A DNA stretch of 64,000 nt from an uncultured Opitutia bacterium (GTDB lineage Bacteria; Verrucomicrobiota; Verrucomicrobiia; Opitutales; Opitutaceae): contig CAIKHO010000007.1 in the NCBI GenBank assembly GCA_903827245.1, positions 107,503 to 171,502 of the forward strand. Reading direction: 5' to 3'. Of the stretch, positions 40,596 to 47,016 are shown one piece after another. Both the position numbers and the translations under genes were made by a program. The notes below the pieces were generated by a model, which was not told where the DNA came from, did not search any database, and worked only from the letters and a program-made list of their open reading frames with translations. How positions within the stretch are numbered: the first letter of the stretch is position 1; each line of letters begins with the position of its first letter.

Positions 40596-41354
40596 ATGAG
40601 TTTTCGCCCAGTGAATTTAAAGTCCGTCGCGATCGCAGGGGTGATCCTTGCTGCGTTTCCGGCATGGCTTTTCGCGCAATCCCAGACGGAAACGAAGATC
40701 AGGCTCATGTCCGATGCCCTCGCGGCCCGCGACCACGGCGATCTGGCGGCGGCCAAGGGCAAGCTCGAGGCGCTCCAGGCGATTGCACCCAACGATCCCA
40801 ACGTGCGCCGGATCCTGGCGGAGGTCACCGCCCGGCTCGAAAATCCACCAGCCGCACCCGTAACTCCTGTGCCGGCTCAGGCGGTTCAGTTCCCGCCGGA
40901 ACCCGCATCCGTCGTGCCTGCACCGGCGGGTCCCGCGGTCCTGGCGACAGCGGCGGTGCCGACCGAACGTCCCCCGGCCCAGCCCGCCGCAGGCCGGGTA
41001 CTGATGCCTACGGTCCACGAAGAAAAACCCGACGGACCGGTTGGGCCCGAGGCCGGGCCTAGGCCGAAGGCCAGCCCGGAAGCGACGGCCGCGGCCGCGG
41101 CGGCGGAAGCGCTCCTGCACGCGGATGACGACCGTCTGGGGACCTTGGTGGCCTACGTCCAGGCCCAGCGCGCCCTGGCGCGGACGCAGGCCCGGGAAAA
41201 AAATTACGCGGCGGCGATCGCGACGCTGGATTCCGCCTTGGAGGAACTGGAAAAACTCCCCAGCGATCTGAGGGCGGAGCGCGCCGAATATGTGCGCAAG
41301 GCCAAGGAGGCGGCCGCGGCTGAAACAGGGGTGAGGTTGCGCCATCACCGCTGA
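40596..41354 (+). CDS. Exported TPR-like protein at the head of the pilus/secretin locus
   Basis: 252 residues from the ATG at 40596. Signal peptide (VAIAGVILAAFPAWLFAQS), then a TPR-like helix pair (ALAARDHGDLAAAKGKLEALQAIAPNDPNVRRILAEV), a long Pro/Ala linker, and a C-terminal helical repeat (ARTQAREKNYAAAIATLDSALEELEKL). It is probably periplasmic. By position it corresponds to the gene next to the PilM homologue in Akkermansia (Amuc_1102 side), but I see no clear sequence relationship. Confidence 0.75.
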   Translation: MSFRPVNLKSVAIAGVILAAFPAWLFAQSQTETKIRLMSDALAARDHGDLAAAKGKLEALQAIAPNDPNVRRILAEVTARLENPPAAPVTPVPAQAVQFPPEPASVVPAPAGPAVLATAAVPTERPPAQPAAGRVLMPTVHEEKPDGPVGPEAGPRPKASPEATAAAAAAEALLHADDDRLGTLVAYVQAQRALARTQAREKNYAAAIATLDSALEELEKLPSDLRAERAEYVRKAKEAAAAETGVRLRHHR

Positions 41355-41493
41355 TCGGCGGATCAAGCGGCGGAAGTGCCGGGGGGCGGTGCAGGCTGAC
41401 TATTTCGGTCCTTTCGCAGTTTGCTGAAAGATTGGGCCCGGGCGGGACGTTTCCTTTGGAAACAATCGTAACGCCGAAACATTGCCTCCGCCC

Positions 41494-42894
41494 ATGCCCT
41501 TCAACCTGCCCTTATTGCCCGCTCCCCTCCGGTCCCGGATCATCGTCGTCGATTGCGGCGCGCGTCATGTTGCCTGGGGACGGTTTATGCGGGGCGGGGG
41601 AGGCCGGCTGGTGCTCGAGCGATGGGCCTTCGCCACGCACGAGGCGGGTTCGCATCCGGATGCAAGCTGGGCCGACCATACCGGCCGGGCCCTCGCAGCG
41701 CTGGTGGCCCGGGAAGAACCGGGTGGGGCCTGCCGGCTGGCGCTGGCCGGTCACCACACGCTCGTGAAATTTGTCCGCCTGCCCGTAGCTGGAAAAAACG
41801 AGCGGGCCGGGATGATCGACTTCGAGGCCCGGCAGAGCATTCCACTCCCGCTGGAGCAGGTGGTGTGGAATCACCTCCCCGTGGTCGACAACGGCTCGGA
41901 GATGAAATTCATGCTGGCCGCGGTGAAGCGGGATCTCGCGGGCGCAATCACCGGCGCGGCGGAAGCGGCAGGCTTGCGCCTGTCCCAGATGGTACCCTCC
42001 GGGCTCACCTTGCTGAGTGCGTTCCGGTACAGTCACCCCGGGGAATGCAACGACGTGCTGGTGGTCGAGGTTGGCGCGCGATCGACGCACCTGGTGTTCA
42101 TGGAACGCGAGGGTTTTTTCATCCGCACCTTTTCGCTGGGAGGCGACTTCGTCACCCAGGCGGCGGCTGACGAATTGCAGGTCGATTTCACGACGGCGGA
42201 GGCGCTGAAAATCGAGGTTCTCTCCGGCCGGCCCGGCTCGGCCGTGGAAGTGTTGCAATACGACGCCGTGCGGCGCGCCTGCGCCCGCTTTGCCGAGCGC
42301 CTGCACCTTGAGATTGTCCGCTCGACCATCCGGTACCGCTGTCATTCCGGCGCGGCCCAGCCATCGGCCGTCTACCTGTGCGGCGGCGGCTCGTTGATTC
42401 CCGAGCTCCCACTCCTGCTGGCGGAACAGCTCGCGTTGCGGGTGGTGCGATTCGATCCCCTGCGCAAGGTCGAGCTGGCCCCATCGGCGCGGGAGGGCAG
42501 TGCGTCATCCGGACCCATGCTGGCGGGCCTCATTGGCCTTGGCACCAGCCTGGTGGATGGCCGCTGGCCGGGGCTGAACCTGTTGCCCCCGGCGATGGTG
42601 AAGGCGCAGGCGGCCCGCCGCCGTCAACCCGTTTTGATTGGCGCCGCGCTGCTGGCAACCTTGGCCCCCCTGCCGGTCGTCTGGGCGGAACAGCGTGTGG
42701 CCCGTGCGACTGAGGCGGCATCCGCGGCGGTTGAGCGCCGTCTGATTCCGCTCCGGGCCATCGCCGCGCGCAACGGGCACAATCTGGTCCAGATGAGGGA
42801 AATCCAACGCGGATCGATGGCACCCGGCGGATTCTTGAGGCGAAATCCAACTGGGCCGCCTTCTTCAATGACCTGCAGGCACGTCTTGCCATGA
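41494..42894 (+). CDS. pilM: PilM-like ATPase fused to the start of PilN, frameshifted
   Basis: The PilM part has an actin/FtsA-like fold: IIVVDCGARHVAWGRF at the nucleotide-binding start, FVRLPVAGKNERAGMIDFEARQ, DVLVVEVGARSTHLVFM, FSLGGDFVTQA and YLCGGGSLIPELPLLL. From about nt 42575 the sequence becomes PilN-like (NLLPPAMVKAQAARRRQP followed by a membrane helix). At about 42810 the frame slips: the coherent PilN sequence continues in the -1 phase, and the original frame ends at 42894 after unrelated residues. Inserting one C near CAACGCGG would rejoin the two parts into one protein of about 566 residues. PilM/PilN form the cytoplasmic-periplasmic alignment complex of type IV pili. ATG at 41494. 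Confidence 0.85.
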   Translation: MPFNLPLLPAPLRSRIIVVDCGARHVAWGRFMRGGGGRLVLERWAFATHEAGSHPDASWADHTGRALAALVAREEPGGACRLALAGHHTLVKFVRLPVAGKNERAGMIDFEARQSIPLPLEQVVWNHLPVVDNGSEMKFMLAAVKRDLAGAITGAAEAAGLRLSQMVPSGLTLLSAFRYSHPGECNDVLVVEVGARSTHLVFMEREGFFIRTFSLGGDFVTQAAADELQVDFTTAEALKIEVLSGRPGSAVEVLQYDAVRRACARFAERLHLEIVRSTIRYRCHSGAAQPSAVYLCGGGSLIPELPLLLAEQLALRVVRFDPLRKVELAPSAREGSASSGPMLAGLIGLGTSLVDGRWPGLNLLPPAMVKAQAARRRQPVLIGAALLATLAPLPVVWAEQRVARATEAASAAVERRLIPLRAIAARNGHNLVQMREIQRGSMAPGGFLRRNPTGPPSSMTCRHVLP

Positions 42895-43193
42895 CCGGGG
42901 ATGTCTGGCTCGAAAGGCTTCAGGTCGTGCCTCCGGTGGATGACGGCGGGCGCGCGCCGGCGGGGCCGGTTCCTGCGGCGGCGCGTCTCATCCTGAGTGG
43001 ACGGATGCTCGATCGAAGTATGATCACCGCAAAGGTCGGCGCCGGCTCCTACAGTCGGGTCGCGGATCTTTTGCAGCTGCTCCGGCATTCGCCATTCGTC
43101 GCGGCGGTCGAAAACGAACGCTTCAACGGGCGGGAGGCGGACATTTTGCACTTTGACGCCACCCTTGTGATGCACGCGGCCAAGTTGTTCTGA
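42891..43193 (+). CDS. C-terminal part of the PilN-like domain (downstream of frameshift)
   Basis: The phase is open from 42810 and reads RIDGTRRILEAKSNWAAFF then NDLQARLAMTGDVWLERL, typical of the PilN periplasmic domain, and ends ...HFDATLVMHAAKLF at 43193. An ATG at 42891 exists, but it lies inside the conserved region and has no ribosome-binding site of note. It is therefore better viewed as the detached end of the pilMN fusion gene than an independent gene. Confidence 0.75.
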   Translation: MTGDVWLERLQVVPPVDDGGRAPAGPVPAAARLILSGRMLDRSMITAKVGAGSYSRVADLLQLLRHSPFVAAVENERFNGREADILHFDATLVMHAAKLF

Positions 43194-43205
43194 ACGATCC
43201 CGGTC

Positions 43206-44204
43206 ATGCGGCGTTTTCCCGGAAATTCATTTTTTGCGCTCGCATTGGTCGTGCTTGCCGTGGTGTTCGTGGCGGAGATCCGTGCGGTCTTCACGATCCG
43301 GAATGGAATCGCGCGCGCCCGGGCGCGAGGGGAACACCGGCTGCGCGAGCTGAAACAATTTCAAACGACCGCACCGGCTGCGACCGCGGAAAATGCCATG
43401 GCCATCGAGGAGGACGTCGGCCGTGCGGGGCAGGCACTGGCTGCTCTTCAGTCCGATTTGACCATGCGGAACCGTGTCGCTGCCGGCTGGGCGGGTGTTC
43501 CAGTGCCGGCAGATCGCTGGGAGGCTTTTCTCGATCTGTCGGAGTTTGTCGAGAGGACCCGCGAGCGTGCCGCCCGGGCCGGTGTCGGCTTGAAACCCGA
43601 CGAGCGCTTTGGCTTTTCCGCTTACGCCACGGAGGGACCGGAAGCGGGCATGATCCCGGCTGTCTTTCGCCAGAGGCTGGTGGTGGAGGCGCTCATGGAA
43701 GGGTTGTTCGATTCCCAGCCCTTCCGGCTGCTCTCGATCCAGCGTGAAACGCCTCTGCTGGCAGGGGCCCAGCCTTCCTCTCCAAGCCGCATGCCCGCGG
43801 CCCGGACAGGCGCGCGCCCGGCAGATCTGTTTTCGATGGAACCGCGTCTTTCCTCCCGGGTGCCCGGAGTGGCGGATGCGACAGCCTTCCGCCTGGCTTT
43901 TGTCGGCACTACGGGGGTTTTGCGCAGGTTTCTGAACCGGCTTTCGCGCTTGGAGCTGCCGGTGGTGGTGCGCTGCGTTGAGGTTGAGCCTGCCACTGGT
44001 CCCGATTCCGCCCCCGTGGAACCGATCGCTTCCGGCCTGAATTCCCTCACGCCCGCTGCGGAGTCATCGGTGGATGCCGCAGAAAATTTGGTGCCGGTTG
44101 CGTCACCCGCATTTTCAAAATTCACGGTGACCGTTGAATCTATCGAATTCGCGTTCGCCAGTGGATTGTCATCCCGGGACGAGGCCGCCTATCCCGCGAC
44201 TTGA
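43206..44204 (+). CDS. Amuc_1100-like (PilO-type) pilus-associated membrane protein
   Basis: 332 residues. N-terminal membrane anchor (FFALALVVLAVVFVAEI), then a coiled-coil region (ARARARGEHRLRELKQF...ALAALQSDL) and a periplasmic part. Two segments parallel Amuc_1100 of Akkermansia: FGFSAYATEGPEA...MEGLFDS (Amuc_1100: LGFQVYSTQAPSV...VNKLAECG) and TAFRLAFVGTTGVLRRFLNRL (LEIAFQGDRESVLKAMNAI). Each is followed by a beta-strand, and the C-terminus ends FTVTVESIEF. PilO-like ferredoxin-fold domains are expected. It lies 12 bases after the PilN part. Confidence 0.8.
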   Translation: MRRFPGNSFFALALVVLAVVFVAEIRAVFTIRNGIARARARGEHRLRELKQFQTTAPAATAENAMAIEEDVGRAGQALAALQSDLTMRNRVAAGWAGVPVPADRWEAFLDLSEFVERTRERAARAGVGLKPDERFGFSAYATEGPEAGMIPAVFRQRLVVEALMEGLFDSQPFRLLSIQRETPLLAGAQPSSPSRMPAARTGARPADLFSMEPRLSSRVPGVADATAFRLAFVGTTGVLRRFLNRLSRLELPVVVRCVEVEPATGPDSAPVEPIASGLNSLTPAAESSVDAAENLVPVASPAFSKFTVTVESIEFAFASGLSSRDEAAYPAT

Positions 44205-44210
44205 ACTGCC

Positions 44211-45026
44211 ATGCGCACCCTTAAGCACCGGGAAGGAATCCTGCCGATCATCGCGCTGTTAATGGTATTAGTGGGCGCGGGCTGGGCCTGGTGGCGATTG
44301 TCCCGGATTTTCGCGTTGGCTGCGCTCCATCCTGACGCTGGCGGGGCGGAGGGCGGCTATCGGCCGGTTCATTGGGACCACGCGACCGTGCAAGCGGAGG
44401 AGTGGTCGACACCCATGGCGCAAACGGCCGGGCCGGACTGGACCTTCGAGGTTTTCGCGCCTCCGGCGATTAGTTATGATGTCACGAAGGGTGAGTATAC
44501 CGTCACTTCCCCCGATGCTGATCGAACTGGTGCAGAAAAAAATTCCGGACCCACGGAGGACCCGGTAATCGAGGAACCGTTTCCCCTTAAACTCGTCGGA
44601 TTTCTCGGCAGTGAGGGGCGCTATTTCGGAACGTTCGAAAACGTGCGGTCGAAGGAGCATTTTCTTGCCCGCGCCGGGCAGCATCTGCCTGCACTCGGGC
44701 TGGCCATCAAGGAGTTCGAGGTGAGAAAAGAGGGCCTCGACTTGCCCGACGGAATAGGGTTTGGCGGGCTGGTCGCGACCGCCGTCGTGCGTGACAACCA
44801 AACCGGTGTGGAGACCATCCTGACCGACCGGGTTCGTGGTTCGGCGGAGCGTTCAACTGATTCAGTTGATGGATCTGGCAGATTAAAGTCGGACGAGGAC
44901 GGCCCTGCCAGGAATGCAGACGTCAATCCTGAGGAGGCCCGGGGTCCGGGACGCGCCCGCGGCATCGGGCCGGATGCGAATGATGCTCTCCCCGCCGACC
45001 GCAAAACCTTTGACCCACAACCGTGA
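44211..45026 (+). CDS. Periplasmic linker protein of the pilus/secretin locus (Amuc_1099 position)
   Basis: 271 residues. One N-terminal membrane helix (GILPIIALLMVLVGAGWAWW), then a periplasmic domain with GPDWTFEVFAPPAISYD and a small beta domain (FPLKLVGFLGSEGRYFGTFENV ... ARAGQHLPALGLAIKEFEV) that resembles PilP/GspC-type homology regions. The tail from about residue 205 is polar and disordered. It starts 6 bases after the Amuc_1100-like gene and is followed by the secretin. This is the place of Amuc_1099 in Akkermansia; sequence match not certain. Confidence 0.72.
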   Translation: MRTLKHREGILPIIALLMVLVGAGWAWWRLSRIFALAALHPDAGGAEGGYRPVHWDHATVQAEEWSTPMAQTAGPDWTFEVFAPPAISYDVTKGEYTVTSPDADRTGAEKNSGPTEDPVIEEPFPLKLVGFLGSEGRYFGTFENVRSKEHFLARAGQHLPALGLAIKEFEVRKEGLDLPDGIGFGGLVATAVVRDNQTGVETILTDRVRGSAERSTDSVDGSGRLKSDEDGPARNADVNPEEARGPGRARGIGPDANDALPADRKTFDPQP

Positions 45027-45045
45027 AACGACGCGGGCCCCAACT

Positions 45046-47016
45046 ATGAACCAGATCATTTATCCTAACGGAATTTTCCTTCTCCTGGCACTGTTGGCGA
45101 TCGGTCATGCCTCTATGGCCAAGGCGGATTCCGACTCCGGCCAGCTATCTGGAAGCGCCCGACATGAAAGCGCGGGGGACCGGCCATCGTCGGGCAAGGA
45201 TGGATCGCGGACTGACGCCAACAAACCGCCGGCACGGGAGGGCACCCGTAACCAAATGCTCATGGAGGTAAGCCGCAGTTGGGAGCCTTCCGGTCCGCAA
45301 ACGAGATCCGGTCGTGAGGCCATTGCATTGCCACCGGTTGGGCCAATCGTGCAAAAACTTGACCTCATCACGCTTCCGAATGTCAGCTTCACAAATGTGG
45401 AGCTGGGTCGCGTGGTCAGTACCCTCAGCGCGGCTTCCGTGGAGTTCGACCCCGCAGAATCGGGGTCCAAGGGCGTGAATATTGTCTTGGTCGATCCTTC
45501 CGGGAAGTCCCCCGTCATCAGCATTGCCCTCCGCAACCTCTCGCTGAAACGCGTGCTCGACCTCGTGGCCGAGTCGGCAGGCTATCAATATGAGGTGCAG
45601 GCCGACACGGTGATCATGCGCCCGGGCGGCGAAACGTCATCGCTTGAAACCGCTTATTTCCCCGTGTCCCGCTCGACGGTCATTCGCACGACCGGGCTGG
45701 ACGGCGCGGCAGGTGCGGGTGCGGCAAAACGAGCAACGGGCTCGGCTGCGGAGACATTCCTGCCCGGAACCGAGGCCGCCGCGCTCAAGGCCTTTCTCCA
45801 GCAGGCGGGTGTGAACTTTGACGCCACGCCGGGGAGCAGCCTCGCCTACGATGGCTCGGGCGTCTACGCCACCCACACGGTACGAAACCTGGAGCGGATT
45901 CGGGGCATCCTGTCGCGTTACAGCGAAGTGCGCCAGGTGGCCATCGAGGCCAAGTTCATGGAAGTGCAGGACGGCGTGCTCGATGAGCTGGGCGTCAGTT
46001 GGAACATCGCCCGGCGCGGATTGCCCCGCCTCAACCCGGAAACGGGTGCGCCGGTGCTCGATGCCAATGGCCGGCAGATTTTCCTGCCGCAGGAAATCTA
46101 TGACACCGCGGGCAGCAACCGGACTCTTTCGCAGGCTTTCAGCGGGTCGCAGTCGTCCAACGCCATCATCATTGATGGCAAACCCGTCGCCGGCACCCAG
46201 GCGCCGCGTCTTCCCGGCAGTGTTTCACTCGGGGACGGTGCCACGGCCCTCGCCAATATCACGGGCACTGTGGGAGAATTTGACGTGAACGCCGTGATCC
46301 GGGCGCTCGCGCAAAAACAGGGCACGGATCTCCTGAGCGCACCGCGCGTCACGGTCCTGTCGGGTCATCCCGCCACCATCACGGTCGCGCAGGAAATGCG
46401 TTACCCACAGAGCTACGGCGAGATTCAAAGCCAGGTCGGCTCGACGGCGGGCGGCGGGGCGGGGGGCAGCGGCTCGGCGGGGGTCACCATCACGGCGGGC
46501 ACGCCGCAGGATTTCGCGACACGCAATATCGGCGTGGAGCTGCGGTGCACGCCGACGGTCGAGGAGGATGGCTACAGCATCAGCCTCGACCTCAATCCGA
46601 AGGTCACCGAGTTCGAGGGATTTGTGGAGTATGGGGGGCCCAGCCTGGCCATCTCGGCCGGCACCTCGGTCACGGTTCCGCCGGGTTTCTACCAGCCGAT
46701 CTTCTCGGTGCGCGAGGTCGCCACGAAGGTTACGATCTGGGACGGCGCGACGCTCGTCATGGGCGGCCTGACGCGCGAGGAGGTCAAGCAGGTGGAGGAC
46801 CGGGTGCCGGTATTGGGCAGCATTCCGCTGATTGGGCGCCTATTTCGGTCGAAAGGGGAAAGTTCGCAGAAGCGGAATCTGCTGATTTTTGTGACGGCCA
46901 GCCTGGTGAACCCCGGCGGTGCGCCTCTCCGGCCGGGCGACACGGCAACGGCGGTGGTCGAAGGTCCCGACGCCCGGGTATTTTCCAAAGTCGGACCGGT
47001 CGAGACCGACCGGTAA
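45046..47016 (+). CDS. Secretin (GspD/PilQ family, Amuc_1098-like)
   Basis: 656 residues from the ATG at 45046. Outer-membrane channel. Signal peptide (IFLLLALLAIGHASMAKA), an N-domain region (LPNVSFTNVELGRVVSTLS; NLSLKRVLDLVAESAGYQYEV), a second N-domain (TVRNLERIRGILSRY), then the secretin core: VAIEAKFMEVQDGVLDELG, ALAQKQGTDLLSAPRVTVLSGHPATI, GVELRCTPTVEEDGYSISL and VTIWDGATLVMGGLTREE. The closing signature is DRVPVLGSIPLIGRLFRS...KRNLLIFVTASLV. It has the VPVLGSIP hallmark. A long stretch after residue 335 is inserted relative to PilQ. No assembly ATPase or GspF-like protein is in this window. Confidence 0.93.
   Translation: MNQIIYPNGIFLLLALLAIGHASMAKADSDSGQLSGSARHESAGDRPSSGKDGSRTDANKPPAREGTRNQMLMEVSRSWEPSGPQTRSGREAIALPPVGPIVQKLDLITLPNVSFTNVELGRVVSTLSAASVEFDPAESGSKGVNIVLVDPSGKSPVISIALRNLSLKRVLDLVAESAGYQYEVQADTVIMRPGGETSSLETAYFPVSRSTVIRTTGLDGAAGAGAAKRATGSAAETFLPGTEAAALKAFLQQAGVNFDATPGSSLAYDGSGVYATHTVRNLERIRGILSRYSEVRQVAIEAKFMEVQDGVLDELGVSWNIARRGLPRLNPETGAPVLDANGRQIFLPQEIYDTAGSNRTLSQAFSGSQSSNAIIIDGKPVAGTQAPRLPGSVSLGDGATALANITGTVGEFDVNAVIRALAQKQGTDLLSAPRVTVLSGHPATITVAQEMRYPQSYGEIQSQVGSTAGGGAGGSGSAGVTITAGTPQDFATRNIGVELRCTPTVEEDGYSISLDLNPKVTEFEGFVEYGGPSLAISAGTSVTVPPGFYQPIFSVREVATKVTIWDGATLVMGGLTREEVKQVEDRVPVLGSIPLIGRLFRSKGESSQKRNLLIFVTASLVNPGGAPLRPGDTATAVVEGPDARVFSKVGPVETDR

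Follow-up and report, generated by a model that had tools for sequence, protein, structure and literature searches.

What machine is encoded by a locus of an uncultured Opitutia bacterium whose genes recall the Amuc_1098-1101 genes of Akkermansia, and what is the tetratricopeptide repeat (TPR) gene with which it begins? The locus lies at positions 40596-47016 of a 64,000-nt stretch (the window) of genome G000, which comprises 91 contigs and is 97.38% complete (genomes, contigs and loci are labeled G, C and L). A reading made from the sequence alone had listed an exported TPR-like protein, PilM, PilN, a membrane protein with Amuc_1100-like segments, a periplasmic linker and a secretin in this order. 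The gene order and coordinates were verified, with all genes on the + strand, as follows.

40596..41354, + strand: N-terminal TPR part of PilQ, split off, predicted to be exported, 252 amino acids (aa) (phmmer matches to secretin N-termini)
41482..42894, + strand: PilM part of an Amuc_1101-type PilM/N gene, ATG at 41494, downstream end frame-broken (NF045709, PF11104)
42891..43193, + strand: PilN-like C-terminal end of the PilM/N gene, in another frame (PF05137 below cut-off; continuity in intact relatives)
43206..44204, + strand: Amuc_1100-type protein, predicted to fold like PilO, with a single membrane helix at the N-terminus (profile and predicted fold)
44211..45026, + strand: Amuc_1099-type linker with a predicted PilP/GspC-HR domain at about residues 123-207 and a membrane helix at 10-37 (hhalign, fold)
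45046..47016, + strand: short 656-aa PilQ secretin lacking the TPR region at its N-terminus (NF042912, PF00263)

The locus is of the Akkermansia Amuc_1098-1101 kind, and relatives of 1101, 1100, 1099 and 1098 follow one another in the Akkermansia order, as had been proposed. The first gene had been taken for a plain exported TPR-like protein. Sequence comparison instead shows that it corresponds to the TPR-bearing N-terminus of PilQ, which here is a gene of its own, and that it is no counterpart of Amuc_1102. No terminator-like site was found between 41354 and pilM on the + strand.

The two parts of the secretin

Of the 805 positions of the Amuc_1098_fam model (NF042912), the window secretin matches 209-804 (E = 2.1e-103); it also matches PF00263 (E = 4.8e-35). 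The Amuc_1098_fam match begins at nearly the same model position in two relatives (207 in L111 and 212 in G405). We fetched the loci around all 61 Amuc_1100_fam places of the window's family other than the window's own. With the window TPR protein as the phmmer query, the matches among the fetched loci were 40 secretin N-termini and 4 stand-alone open reading frames (ORFs; window, L111, L112, and L153), and the search reached an E value of 7e-22. The protein is identical to the secretin N-termini of L113 and L156 at 51/93 and 45/91 positions, respectively, with a QSQTETKIRLM stretch in common. At the start of many long secretins, a signal peptide is followed by a QSQTETKIRLM-like stretch and a TPR, and the window TPR protein has this same start, while Pfam recognized only weak TPR in it (two TPR_14 stretches). 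The secretin had an N-terminal TPR match in 40 of the 61 family loci and no such match in 13; its core was unreadable in the other 8.

The TPR match was present in 49 of the 80 family genomes. It lay within frames of at least 612 aa in 43 of these 49 and in a stand-alone frame of 253 to 381 aa in 5 (G000, G396, G427, G403, and G405); in G421 the frame ends at the contig end. A locus from a named metagenome-assembled genome (MAG), L217, is a sixth stand-alone case. The split was present in all three genomes of the genus that were examined (G000, G396, and G427). We found no published description of it, although the key Akkermansia literature was covered only in part and an earlier report is possible.

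A 70-row tree was built from concatenated PilM, Amuc_1100-type protein, linker and secretin core. In it, the six split cases all fell inside one 13-row clade (support 99/96), and the TPR match was carried by 0 of its 12 readable secretins (G405 and G434 were judged by genome search). Before G405 and G434 were added, this clade was less well supported and had 12 rows including L124 in a quick tree (SH-aLRT, the Shimodaira-Hasegawa-like approximate likelihood ratio test, 96) and 11 rows without L124 in a careful tree (78/87). The window, L111, L112, and L153 grouped with support of 100/100 in the careful tree and, with L223 and L224 added, 82/99 in the 70-row tree. The split label required at least three changes on the 70-row tree, possibly one gain and two losses, and two on a 68-row tree; the split may have arisen once, but these trees do not prove a single origin. 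Genus g206 does not fit this simple pattern. In G394 (L221) the TPR start is part of a 715-aa ORF whose secretin core is weak; in G425 (L222) it is part of a 596-aa ORF in which no secretin core was found. No PilM, Amuc_1100-type protein or linker was found on either contig stretch.

In the window, the TPR gene sits ahead of the 1101 relative, where Akkermansia has Amuc_1102 (MUL2A). An Amuc_1102 profile of 25 rows (25 of the 45 Amuc_1102-like ORFs), whose sole match in the PDB was Amuc_1102 itself (1.2e-43), had matches at E ≤ 0.01 in 39 of the 80 family genomes, weak ones in two. No relative was found at this threshold in G000, G396, G427, G403, or G405. Among 51 rows scorable for both Amuc_1102 and the fused TPR, 29 had both, 12 had neither, 8 had the TPR only and 2 had Amuc_1102 only. 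We do not claim a linked loss of the two, because only three independent pairs exist.

The reference gene set was found in locus L093 (G113), with Amuc_1102, 1101, 1100, 1099, and 1098 in order, all above the cut-offs. Its secretin is 907 aa long, as is A. muciniphila PilQ according to a part of PMC4960237, and we infer that L093 is A. muciniphila. The window shares the order of the 1101, 1100, 1099, and 1098 relatives with this Amuc_1098-1102 (MUL2) locus. In contrast, it has no detected Amuc_1102 relative, its secretin TPR is a separate gene rather than fused, and all of its scores lie under the NCBIfam cut-offs (254 bits against 650 for Amuc_1101, 57 against 180 for Amuc_1100, and 347 against 750 for Amuc_1098). 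Two Akkermansia-type genomes (L094 and L096) have a second Amuc_1098-family secretin, with no PilM, 1100 or linker detected in its 16-kb stretch. Separately, two public MAG records titled Akkermansia muciniphila (L201 and L212) have an Opitutaceae-type locus, and their titles are probably wrong.

The detached TPR piece

By analogy with known systems, the detached piece is likely a trans-acting pilotin. The pilotins of type IVa pili are TPR outer membrane lipoproteins that promote PilQ multimerization, according to a section of PMC10653833, and five TPRs are described for TadD, the pilotin of the Tad system, in part of PMC10499894. In A. muciniphila PilQ, the fused TPR region has itself been noted as pilotin-like in a passage of PMC4960237. 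If that likeness is functional, a split lineage is to be expected. The window piece resembles PilF, PilW, Tgl, and TadD as an exported TPR protein paired with a secretin. It differs from them in having about two weak TPR-like stretches instead of five or six motifs, in the absence of a lipobox, and in its derivation from the secretin itself. By eye, no lipobox was seen in the window, L111, or L112 copies, and L217 has a weaker lipobox-like Cys.

In G405 the operon is on C55 (L223) and the TPR gene is unlinked on C112 (L220), adjoining a NUDIX-like gene that resembles one preceding the window operon. The G405 protein has an LASC lipobox (by eye) and matches TIGR02521 PilW (E = 4.2e-4) and BamD (1e-4), both far below the cut-off. 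A further-reaching reading is that a secretin broke in two and its built-in TPR pilotin was freed, took the slot of the surface protein Amuc_1102 and became an unlinked outer membrane lipoprotein in one relative, which would be a natural cis-to-trans conversion of a secretin chaperone. We put this forward tentatively, as somewhat less probable than its opposite.

The piece could also be a decaying remnant, left lingering after the secretin shed a dispensable N-terminal extension. This would fit the seven other searched genomes of the clade in which no TPR piece was detected (G434, G375, G422, G395, G426, G423, and G391), as well as the truncated secretins outside the clade that have no detected TPR piece (L122, L126, L130, L123, and L139). 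However, the genus has kept an intact ORF of 238 to 270 aa in 3/3 genomes, with 57 to 59% identity to the window copy over the whole length, and G405 retains the piece away from the operon and with a lipobox. We consider decay unlikely. It is very improbable that the window protein has no kinship with secretins and, as a periplasmic TPR protein, came to resemble secretin N-termini by convergence, since, common and weakly conserved as TPRs are, the identities include the QSQTETKIRLM stretch, the phmmer search reached an E value of 7e-22, the matches in the 61 family loci were the 40 secretin N-termini and just three stand-alone ORFs besides the window's own, and the adjacent secretin lacks that part.

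The envelope machine

The sequence-only calls of PilM, an Amuc_1100-like protein and a secretin have profile support far above chance. Amuc_1101_fam (NF045709) matches 41482-42894 (E = 3e-75), and PF11104 (PilM) matches the same protein (E = 1.4e-16; 60.9 bits against a cut-off of 27), which is the only PilM match in the genome. PilM and PilN had been described as a single gene, which is not one open frame in the window: the PilM frame ends at 42894, and the PilN end runs in another frame to 43193, with the break located at about 42.80-42.85 kb (by eye). An intact PilM/N gene is found in L111 and L112 (561 aa each) and in P0044 (566 aa), which is 100% identical over 93% of the query and belongs to a cluster whose 5 sequences come from 5 contigs. 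Because relatives keep one intact gene, the break reads either as an error in sequencing or as a mutation of the strain. The PF05137 match of the PilN end is weak and under the cut-off (E = 0.03), and PF05137/PilN was not found in intact P0044 at E ≤ 0.05.

The resemblance of 43206-44204 to Amuc_1100, which had been seen only by eye, was borne out by profile and fold. Amuc_1100_fam matches it (E = 1.9e-15), and the best match of its predicted fold is the Amuc_1100 crystal structure, with PilO next. A family profile searched against the PDB found Amuc_1100 alone (E = 0.0018); a single-sequence search gave only chance matches. The linker matches the gene that 13 loci carry at the Amuc_1099 position (hhalign probability 97.9, E = 3.8e-13) and carries a PilP/GspC-like domain by predicted fold. 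Foldseek on the linker alone was weak and not decisive (best E = 3.9e-3), and its profile matched no PDB chain. Pfam recognized neither PilO nor PilP in the window proteins; both were recognized by fold. The Amuc_1100-like protein is thus predicted to be PilO and the Amuc_1099-like protein PilP/GspC; each is predicted to have an inner membrane anchor and to face the periplasm. The same prediction would make Akkermansia Amuc_1100, which is encoded in a gene set of the same kind, an inner part of the machine.

The canonical order of the type IVa pilus alignment complex is pilMNOPQ. The window has this order, with PilM/N, predicted PilO and PilP folds, and PilQ; it differs in that PilM and PilN are one gene in its relatives and in that PilO and PilP are recognized by fold rather than by Pfam. 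The profiles, the PilO-like fold and the Amuc_1099-type, PilP-like linker therefore point to a pilM/N-pilO-pilP-pilQ operon of the Amuc_1101-1098 kind. Taken as one reading, it is probable that this operon encodes an envelope-spanning type IV pilus alignment complex whose PilQ TPR part is separate, exported (as predicted) and likely a pilotin in trans. PilM/N/O/P would make up the inner ring, with PilP as the bridge to the PilQ N0 domain, and a pilus would be driven through the complex by PilB, PilC, and PilT, whose genes lie elsewhere. The freed TPR piece would attach to the secretin and, in the manner of PilF, PilW, and Tgl, help it to reach the outer membrane or to assemble there.

The absence of a motor and platform from the locus had suggested a minimal or split system. 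A search of the rest of the genome found PilB-type ATPases on C42, C74, and C86, a PilC-type platform on C48, two neighboring PilT-family ATPases on C79 with two partial matches on C27, and ten prepilin-like N_methyl matches. PilB, PilC, and PilT are all on contigs other than that of the window locus and apart from the type II secretion system, and the machine is therefore scattered, not minimal. The genome has two secretin matches, namely, the window secretin and a GspD beside GspE and GspF on C5. Several of the scattered genes are broken: the PilC-type gene on C48 (L020) is in two frames, the PilB-type ATPase frame on C74 (L003) has an internal TAG, and a PilT-like gene on C27 (L007/L008) is in two pieces. 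These could be either assembly errors or pilus gene decay. The PilB-type ATPase on C42 (L016) has an N-terminal stretch that is GAF-like by eye.

The machine might instead be a type IV pilus-like uptake or secretion device, such as one for polysaccharide capture or DNA uptake, and not a pilus. DNA-uptake machines share type IV pilus parts. For MUL2, an attachment and uptake system with polysaccharide capture has been proposed (PMC13174399). The PilB-, PilC-, and PilT-type genes and the prepilin-like matches of this genome speak against such a device, yet they do not separate a pilus from a pseudopilus. We regard it as unlikely in comparison with the alignment complex of a type IV pilus.

Spread in the phylum and the place of Amuc_1100

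The envelope machine is widespread in the phylum. At E ≤ 1e-20, Amuc_1098_fam matched 364 of the 387 genomes of the phylum and 0 of 14 controls; Amuc_1100_fam matched 301 of 387 at E ≤ 0.001 and 1 of 14 controls (B. subtilis). Inflation of the Amuc_1098_fam count by GspD was considered: the GspD of G000 itself reached only 2.9e-9 on the model, and the 1e-20 cut-off therefore excludes at least that GspD. Within the window's family, Amuc_1100_fam was present in at least 61 of 80 genomes, a lower bound, as G405 and G434 were missed yet hold diverged copies. The order was consistent throughout, with PilM-1100-linker-secretin in 49/49 family loci having all four (61 fetched) and PilM-1100-secretin in 13/13 loci outside the family having those three (16 fetched). 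For selection A1, 39 of 43 proteins were used; selection A3 comprised the window together with 4 proteins and 39 of the 49 loci. The phylum-wide spread is partly in print already: the MUL2 locus is syntenic in aquatic Akkermansiaceae, and it is reported as often conserved in other Verrucomicrobiales families, less in Chthoniobacterales, and not in Methylacidiphilales (PMC13174399). We saw no mention of Opitutales in the main text of that paper.

Reviews treat Amuc_1100 as a host-facing outer membrane or pilus protein, in sections of PMC10688800 and PMC13420330. It is now placed in a PilM-N-O-P-Q operon, with a fold that predicts an inner membrane PilO; if its location is inner, the host effects of the purified protein would be read differently. 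The split lineage also lends itself to a natural test of the suggestion, made from resemblance in a passage of PMC4960237, that the TPR region fused to PilQ in verrucomicrobia is a pilotin.
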